From contig JALWPV010000028.1 of NCBI GenBank assembly GCA_027080775.1, positions 62,001 through 126,000 of the forward strand: a stretch of 64,000 bases of DNA, in the 5' to 3' direction. This document shows, piece after piece, positions 48,812 to 50,850 of this stretch. Numbering within the stretch: position 1 is the stretch's first letter; the number at the start of each line of letters is the position of its first letter. A model generated the notes under the pieces. The model worked only from the letters and a program-made list of their open reading frames with translations. It did no database searches and was not told where the DNA came from. The position numbers and the translations under genes are program-made. Source of the stretch: Acidilobaceae archaeon (GTDB lineage: Archaea; Thermoproteota; Thermoprotei_A; Sulfolobales; Acidilobaceae).

Positions 48812-48889
48812 TGGTGGGCCCGCGGGGATTTGAACCCCGGACCTCCGCCGTGTAAGGGCGGCGTCCTAACCAGGCTAGACGACGGGCCC
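48812..48889 (-). tRNA. tRNA-Val(UAC)
   Basis: Acceptor GGGCCCG/CGGGCCC, discriminator A, encoded CCA at 48814-48812. D-arm GTCT...GGAC, anticodon stem CCGCC/GGCGG with loop CTTACAC (anticodon TAC), T-arm CGGGG-TTCAAAT-CCCCG. No intron is needed. Confidence 0.95.
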
Positions 48890-48933: not shown

Positions 48934-49452
48934 CTAGCAGGCTAGTTGCTTCTCCTTGCTGCACCTAGCCAGGTTCCCGGCCGCCTTACGTAGTGGGGCC
49001 TCGACTGCCTTTAGGGCGTACATCATTGTATAGTATTCCCTCATTATTCCATCCACGCTGGAGAGGTCGATCTCTATTTTGGCCTTCGAGTCCCCGGACG
49101 GCAGCTCTACGACTGCCCTACCCCTCTCTATCACTAAGCCCGCGTTCTTGGTCGAGATTCTTAGTGTGGAGTCGAGGGCCACGGCGGAGAACGCGGAGGA
49201 GTGGTACTTCCATATGGCGTTTGGGGCAACCACTATTGAGGCGCAACCAGTACTACAAGGCTTATCCTCGGAGGGCCTACAGCCCCGGGACCTCTCCGCT
49301 ACACATGATGCCCTCGCGATGAGGCTGTCAAAAGACTCGACCAGCGCTACTATCCTGGATATGAGCCCTACGGCCCTGGCGGCGGCTAGCCCTGTCTTCG
49401 GCATCCTCTCTATGAGGGCTTCGTAATAGGATACCACCTGCTCGCCCGGCAC
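48934..49452 (-). CDS. hypothetical protein, 172 aa
   Basis: N-terminal helical half (EALIERMPKTGLAAARAVGLISRIVALVESFDSLIARA in pieces) with a cysteine-rich loop (CVAERSRGCRPSEDKPCSTGC), then a beta-rich middle (AVALDSTLRISTKNAGLVIERGRAVVELPSG) and a helical C-terminus with a final Cys. It may bind a metal through the Cys loop. Family is not recognised. GTG 49452 is the first start; other starts a few codons in are possible. It lies between tRNA-Val and the cysteine-rich gene. Confidence 0.6.
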   Translation of the reverse strand: MPGEQVVSYYEALIERMPKTGLAAARAVGLISRIVALVESFDSLIARASCVAERSRGCRPSEDKPCSTGCASIVVAPNAIWKYHSSAFSAVALDSTLRISTKNAGLVIERGRAVVELPSGDSKAKIEIDLSSVDGIMREYYTMMYALKAVEAPLRKAAGNLARCSKEKQLAC

Positions 49453-49496: not shown

Positions 49497-49895
49497 CTAC
49501 GCGCCGCCTGGCCTAGGCGGGCCCCCAGCGGCGCTTGGCCGTGGAATTATCCTGAGTGCTAGCGAGGCCGCCGCCTCCATGCCTCTGGGGCTCCTGAGCA
49601 TCCGCTTGAGCACCTCCTTGTCCCCACCTACACGCGTCACGTAGCACTCCCGGCAGACACGTATGCCAGGCTCCACCTCGATGCTACACTCCCGGCAGAC
49701 CAGTCTCCCGCATATGCTGCAGGTCGTTAGGGCAAGCCTCTCCCTGCATATACTGCATAGGGAGGCCGAGCATATGCTGCAGAGTCCTGTCTCCTCGTCG
49801 TAGTGTCTGTCGCATACCAGCCTTCCACAGAGTCTGCACCTATGAGTAGCTGGCGCCCCGCATATCTCGCAGGCTCTGGCTCCAGAGGTGCTCAG
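49497..49895 (-). CDS. cysteine-rich multi-zinc-finger protein lacking a canonical start codon, about 132 aa
   Basis: The minus-strand frame is open for 132 codons with many zinc-type motifs: ACEICGAPATHRCRLCG, LVCDRHY, LCSICSASLCSIC, CSICGRLVCREC, CRECYV, then a basic/Pro-rich tail. B-box/RING-like pairing of the cysteines is likely. No ATG, GTG or TTG occurs between the upstream in-frame TGA and the first cysteine pair. The best start is CTG at 49895, which overlaps the upstream stop as CTGA and has gggggta nearby; a -1 frameshift from the upstream gene would give the same sequence as a fusion. Function is unknown. Confidence 0.65.
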   Translation of the reverse strand: MSTSGARACEICGAPATHRCRLCGRLVCDRHYDEETGLCSICSASLCSICRERLALTTCSICGRLVCRECSIEVEPGIRVCRECYVTRVGGDKEVLKRMLRSPRGMEAAASLALRIIPRPSAAGGPPRPGGA

Positions 49896-50218
49896 CCCAG
49901 CACTACCCCCAGCGTGTCCCTTATGACTCCCCTCCTTACTAGGGTCTCATACGTACGCCATATTCTCTTGTCAGTCACTAGCCCCGTATAGAAGCCCTTG
50001 GACTCTAGTATTTCTCTCACTAGGTTCGGAAACTCCCCTGGATCGATGCCTGAGGCCATGGCGGCTGCCTCCCTCACGGCCTCCGCGACATCGCGGGTCG
50101 AGGGGTACCGCCTCCTCTTCCTCCGGCTCCCTCTGAGTTCCTCCTCCAGCTCCTTCTCGGCCTCCCTGAGCTCCTCTAGTACATCCTCCGGTATCTCGTC
50201 AAACTCTCCATTACGCAT
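49892..50218 (-). CDS. hypothetical charged protein, 108 aa
   Basis: N-terminal acidic helix (EIPEDVLEELREAEKELEEEL in pieces), then a basic linker RGSRRKRRRYPS, then a compact helical domain (VAEAVREAAAMASGIDPGEFPNLVREILESKGFYTGLVTDKRIWRTYETLVRRG in pieces) that resembles a winged-helix-like module. ATG 50218 has ggtgg eight bases upstream. It ends at a TGA overlapped by the CTG of the cysteine-rich gene, so the two are co-translated or fused by frameshift. No family recognised. Confidence 0.65.
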   Translation of the reverse strand: MRNGEFDEIPEDVLEELREAEKELEEELRGSRRKRRRYPSTRDVAEAVREAAAMASGIDPGEFPNLVREILESKGFYTGLVTDKRIWRTYETLVRRGVIRDTLGVVLG

Positions 50219-50261
50219 TTTTTGTTCCACCGCCTACTACGTGAAGGCGTCATAACTGCAA

Positions 50262-50292: not shown

Positions 50293-50850
50293 ATGGAACC
50301 GCCTCTGGGGCGGGTGGTCATGATTTTGAGGCCCCGCAACGAGACAGTAACCGTTAGAGTCGACGGTAGTAGGATAACGATCGCCGGAAGGACCTACCGG
50401 GGGGCCCACATAGTTCTGATAGGGGTGTCCACACTCCGCATGGCCGTGGAGCCCGAGCGCGTCGCGATAAGCGCTAACTTCGACGAGCTGCCCGAGATCG
50501 AAGACGTGAGCCCTGACGTGCTCAGAGTAAGGGCTCCAAGGGCCTCCCTAGAACTCGACCTGGACGGCTCCACTATAATGGAGGTTAGCGAGGATAAGGG
50601 AAGCATTAGCATAAGGGCCCGCAACCTCACCCTCAAATTCGACACTAACCCGCACTCAGGCAGAGTTACCGTGAAGGTGCCCAGAATAGAGTCATTAACT
50701 GTAAACAAGCTTGTGATAACTAGTAACACGAGGGCGTCCGTGAACGCTATAATAGAGCCATTCATAACCGGCGTTGTATCCCTCGACGCTTCGGGGGGCG
50801 CGAGGATATACACCTCGAAGCGCGACGGGGCCCTTAGGATAGAGGCCTAA
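50293..50850 (+). CDS. hypothetical beta-rich protein, 185 aa
   Basis: Almost entirely short beta strands: NETVTVRVDGSRITIAGRTYRG, ASLELDLDGSTIMEVSEDKGSISIRARNLTLKFD, GRVTVKVPRIESLTVNKLVITSNTRASVNAIIE, GARIYTSKRDGALRIEA. The pattern resembles right-handed beta-helix or DUF4097-like adhesin folds, without a signal peptide or membrane segment. The role is unknown. ATG 50293 is leaderless from a good TATA box; ATG 50320 (MILRPRNE) is a weaker alternative. Confidence 0.65.
   Translation: MEPPLGRVVMILRPRNETVTVRVDGSRITIAGRTYRGAHIVLIGVSTLRMAVEPERVAISANFDELPEIEDVSPDVLRVRAPRASLELDLDGSTIMEVSEDKGSISIRARNLTLKFDTNPHSGRVTVKVPRIESLTVNKLVITSNTRASVNAIIEPFITGVVSLDASGGARIYTSKRDGALRIEA

Follow-up and report, generated by a model that had tools for sequence, protein, structure and literature searches.

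Termination-reinitiation pairs of the ATGA/GTGA type are described in archaea and bacteria (PMC6728339, whose text contains neither CTGA nor GTGA). A review of archaeal initiation gives only ATG, GTG and TTG as starts (PMC7531240). In prokaryotes, switches to CUG are very rare: 2 of 61,358 ancestral AUG, 1 of 5,080 GUG and 1 of 2,468 UUG codons (PMC5622118). The weaker GUG and UUG starts are compensated by stronger Shine-Dalgarno (SD) sequences (PMC5622118). Finally, bacterial infC (IF3) combines a non-AUG start, AUU, with translational autocontrol, according to the entry for Butler et al. 1987 listed in PMC9845219.

We analysed a window of 64,000 nucleotides (the whole stretch of DNA under study) from contig JALWPV010000028.1 of an Acidilobaceae archaeon. 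The zinc gene, which encodes a two-module zinc-finger protein, lies on the minus strand at 49497..49895. Its frame opens at 49946 and runs to 49497, and the preceding in-frame stop is a TGA with its high base at 49949. Translation of 49497-49895 gives 132 amino acids with C-x2-C pairs, followed by the TAG stop. None of the 25 codons ahead of the first cysteine (Cys1) is ATG, GTG or TTG (NTG). With an ATA inside the first motif set aside, the near-cognate class (ATT/ATC/ATA/CTG) is represented among them by CTG at 49895 alone. This proposed start, to be read as Met, sits on the TGA stop of the upstream gene and forms CTGA at 49892..49895. It would leave 8 residues, Met included, ahead of Cys1, which is inside the family range.

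The upstream gene (49892..50230, minus strand) encodes 112 amino acids from a GTG; it is conserved and possibly winged-helix-like. The pair resembles the ATGA/GTGA pairs (PMC6728339) in its four-nucleotide overlap, its co-direction and its conserved adjacency. However, the zinc gene offers CTG in place of ATG, GTG or TTG, and its coupling is a prediction from sequence. The downstream gene (48934..49452, minus strand, 172 amino acids, GTG start) is conserved and co-directed, and adjoins the zinc gene in several relatives. Downstream of this three-gene cluster there is a tRNA-Val (tac) gene (48812-48889, minus strand). On the other side, a divergent conserved gene of 185 amino acids occupies 50293-50850 of the plus strand, and its relatives (cluster 18) are found near the zinc gene in other genomes.

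The zinc frame is a real gene. Fourteen cysteines and one arginine are invariant among 27 aligned members of what we define here as the crenarchaeal two-module zinc protein family, and the window protein has all of them. It is encoded at one locus in its own genome and has relatives in 36 of 40 related genomes. Across this thermophilic order, the gene is present in 179 of 197 genomes (115 of the 118 of high quality), and it also occurs in some other families of the same phylum. These results agree with an earlier note on this DNA, which had called the 132-codon frame protein-coding, with a close upstream in-frame stop, no NTG before the first zinc motif and a CTG overlapping the upstream stop as CTGA. 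The absence of NTG in the overlap is by itself unremarkable, since it is also missing from 47% of the synonymously shuffled versions of the tail of the upstream gene. It matters because the zinc frame is a conserved protein.

The AlphaFold model of the protein (mean pLDDT 85.7) presents two small zinc modules and C-terminal helices. Its best structural matches are the Rim2 and Slp4 zinc fingers, none of them significant (Foldseek E no better than 0.095). The cysteine spacing is like that of the B-box, ANCHR-like and FYVE-related cross-brace zinc domains (PF00643, PF22586, PF01363). However, the scores stay below the Pfam gathering cut-offs for all these models (24.4 vs 27 bits for PF22586 and 19.6 vs 24.1 for PF00643). 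The PDB and Pfam searches did not reveal a function, and a search of the literature for Sulfolobus or Crenarchaeota proteins with B-box zinc fingers gave no match.

Comparison with relatives suggests how the CTG arose. In many of them, the upstream gene ends in TGG and then a stop (ATGTGG-TAG, CATATGG-TAA, ATGG-TGA, GAGTGG-TGA, TTTGG-TGA), and the start of the zinc gene is the NTG that overlaps this TGG. A TGG-TGA ending offers a second in-frame GTG, that of GTGA, and here the NTG, this GTG or both serve as the start. In the window, the last codon of the upstream gene is GGC (49895..49897, minus strand), a glycine that stands for the TGG (Trp) of several adjacent relatives. The NTG-GTG-A of the relatives is GGG-CTG-A in the window genus, with GGG at the NTG position and Gly for the terminal Trp. 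One codon change in the upstream gene, TGG to GGC, thus removed the ancestral NTG start or starts of the zinc gene. Because this change turns NTG-GTG-A into GGG-CTG-A, CTGA occupies the place of the relatives' GTGA (loci L027, L045, L048 and L053), and the window CTG stands at a homologous start site.

A strong SD-like sequence accompanies this CTG. It is GGGGGT at 49905..49910 (minus strand), 9 nucleotides before the CTG, where SD-led initiation places the anti-SD complement about 5-10 nucleotides before the start. The 18 nucleotides ahead of the CTG, GCTGGGGGTAGTGCTGGG, form their best duplex with the anti-SD GAUCACCUCCU at -9.9 kcal/mol; this is the general archaeal anti-SD, and that of the genome's own 16S may differ. 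The medians are -5.9 kcal/mol for family members with NTG and -3.1 for random positions. An equally strong site precedes 3.8% of internal CTG/ACG codons. Six near-cognate starts of the family have stronger SDs than the members with NTG (Mann-Whitney p=0.005), as expected from the SD compensation reported for GUG/UUG (PMC5622118). The zinc gene shares with those start-codon switches a weaker start and a stronger SD. The difference is that here a CTG/ACG start recurs several times inside one archaeal protein family.

We consider it very probable that the zinc gene is translated separately, from an SD-supported and coupled start at CTG 49895. We infer that this codon is decoded by the initiator Met-tRNA, and the gene is probably coupled to the upstream one. 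Ribosomes that end the upstream gene at the overlapping TGA would reinitiate at the CTG; alternatively, fresh 30S subunits would bind there. The GGGGGT, which lies within the last codons of the upstream gene, would aid either route, and the product would be a separate protein of 132 amino acids. The CTG itself would be the degenerated descendant of a normal start, left in GGG-CTG-A by the TGG to GGC change. A regulatory role of such a weak start is possible, though unsupported. Of the three options that the earlier note had offered, namely a CTG start with NTGA-type coupling, a -1 slip at ggc-tga and an assembly base error, the first is favoured by the site of the relatives' GTG and by the SD 9 nucleotides upstream.

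It is improbable that another start codon is used (the GGG at the ancestral position, for example, or one upstream in frame), or that the gene is decaying, with poor translation. Such a reading would suit the GGG now found at the ancestral NTG position, as well as four Ignisphaera-type loci (L072, L119, L145 and L154) that seem to have no near-cognate codon where their relatives have NTG. Nevertheless, the CTG is the single near-cognate codon and has the correct spacing from a strong SD. Against decay, the cysteine motifs are intact, and few changes separate the sister species.

An assembly or base-calling error that hides a normal NTG start in the true genome is less probable still. The source genome is a MAG of 1.78 Mb in 85 contigs, and the closest named record is Acidilobaceae archaeon JALWEW010000121.1. 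A second MAG of the same genus (L002, with L031 as a second copy) carries the identical CTG junction, at 98% DNA identity and with 7 substitutions. These substitutions give seven codon differences in the zinc gene, 3 of them synonymous and 4 non-synonymous. In both species the NTG is absent. That a second MAG with these seven other differences has the same junction makes a chance base error unlikely. Moreover, no single indel is needed, the junction being one codon change (TGG to GGC) with respect to the relatives; the homopolymer indel that had been suggested is likewise superfluous, the same sequence being found in an independent MAG. It can be said for an error that both genomes of the genus holding the zinc gene are MAGs, that one ORF elsewhere in the assembly (C28:200452-200713) is frameshifted and intact in the sister MAG, and that the homologue L128 is probably an indel of this kind. 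The two junctions are nearly identical, and they give little independent evidence for selection on the CTG codon.

The least probable explanation is programmed -1 ribosomal frameshifting near GGC-TGA, which would fuse the upstream protein and the zinc protein. The zinc frame is indeed -1 with respect to the upstream gene, it stays open over the 17 codons ahead of the CTG, and there are G-rich runs close to the stop. However, at the 22 loci with the upstream gene at most 80 nucleotides from the zinc gene (L031 again a second copy of L002), all three relative frames (0, 1 and 2) occur, stops intervene, and every zinc gene outside the window genus has an NTG of its own. We found no X XXY YYZ slippery heptamer in the overlap, nor a -1-frame overlap or fused gene conserved in the relatives, and the upstream protein ends at its conserved C-terminus LGVV. 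A fusion is thus neither conserved nor needed, and we rejected it. The comparison of orthologues of both genes, which the earlier note had proposed as a check, found separate genes with a normal NTG for the zinc gene outside the window genus and contradicts the slip at ggc-tga.

The separate CTG start has parallels within the family. Ten of 170 distinct homologues have no NTG ahead of Cys1, for which the family tree requires about seven independent losses. CTG replaces NTG in the window genus, in G008 (directly after a stop) and in G166/G174. ACG is present in G136 and G164 and in a Zestosphaera MAG, where it aligns with the GTG of L074. The remaining cases are G027 and G116. At most of these loci, a strong SD precedes CTG or ACG (GAGGTG-7-CTG in L144/L151, GAGGTG-6-ACG in L121, GAGGGG-6-ACG in L091); L018 has CTG. 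At the G116 locus (L128), an ATG-ATG lies just upstream behind an SD, in another frame and beside an AAAA run, and a homopolymer error is probable.

The control families come from the same genomes or an overlapping set. Of their about 430 genes, 2 have no NTG; ribosomal and other highly expressed genes are over-represented among them. Automatic clusters of antisense frames, or with a conserved core that begins ahead of the start codon, were left out as unreliable. The difference from the zinc family gives Fisher p=1e-4 by loci, and p=0.003 by lineage, a value uncorrected for the search behind it. All ten loci without NTG are in draft genomes or MAGs. On contigs of at least 1.29 Mb (complete or near-complete assemblies), 0 of 49 members (a manual count) are without NTG, compared with 10 of 121 in drafts (Fisher p=0.06). 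Since none is on the large contigs, some of the single-genome losses may be errors. The firm lineages are those represented in two genomes, namely the window genus, g68 and g38. Loss of NTG seems to have recurred several times in this family.

The four Ignisphaera-type loci belong to genus g16, that of G025. They present TTA five codons before Cys1, mostly followed by TAY-GCN, where relatives have TTG or ATG, and there is no SD. They were kept out of the ten: in some of them an ATG or TTG lies in frame farther upstream, again with no SD. L072, L119, L085 and other f2/f3 loci have a conserved stretch just upstream of the zinc gene, CGTCGCTCCACC..CATCAT..GGTCATCCC. Read as its reverse complement, divergently from the zinc gene, it resembles a C/D-box sRNA. 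Rfam gave no match for the stretch conserved ahead of the zinc gene in other families.

Both control exceptions are likely to be non-NTG starts. In ThiL of G183 (L135, minus-strand frame at index 718), the position homologous to the NTG of close relatives (TTG, GTG or ATG, in NTG-AAA-ACN-GGN) is CTG, preceded by an SD of -12.0 kcal/mol. PTH2 of G027 (L211, plus-strand frame at index 1440) has no NTG, and an ATT behind GGTGA (-8.4 kcal/mol) occupies the expected start. In G027, both the zinc gene and PTH2 are without NTG. In the window genome, an insensitive scan of 371 codon-bias gene calls over 355 kb found no other gene that needs a CTG start. Two frames had seemed to have no NTG. For the first a GTG is a plausible start; the second, rather than starting at ACG, is frameshifted with respect to the sister MAG. 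Outside the window, the ORF at C28:200452-200713 of G000 (L311:453-713) is frameshifted compared with an intact copy of 145 amino acids in G002 (L321). It is an assembly error or a pseudogene.

Each of the three elements (CTG starts, NTGA coupling, SD compensation) is already known. The novelty is that the disappearance of NTG from a core archaeal gene can be traced, and that it recurs within one family. As a long shot, by analogy, the zinc protein could be an archaeal translation factor that affects, for example, start-codon choice. Its weak starts (CTG, ACG, perhaps TTA or ATT) would then act as an autoregulatory sensor, like the AUU of infC. The two share an unusual start codon; they differ in that the start codon varies in the zinc family and that a role of the zinc protein in initiation is hypothetical. 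If true, feedback based on the start codon would have an archaeal example in this family. Gene callers limited to NTG would miss or truncate the conserved zinc protein here. With a strong SD, about seven losses in the family and a path from NTG-GTGA to CTGA that can be traced to one codon change, this core gene would make archaeal non-NTG initiation directly testable.
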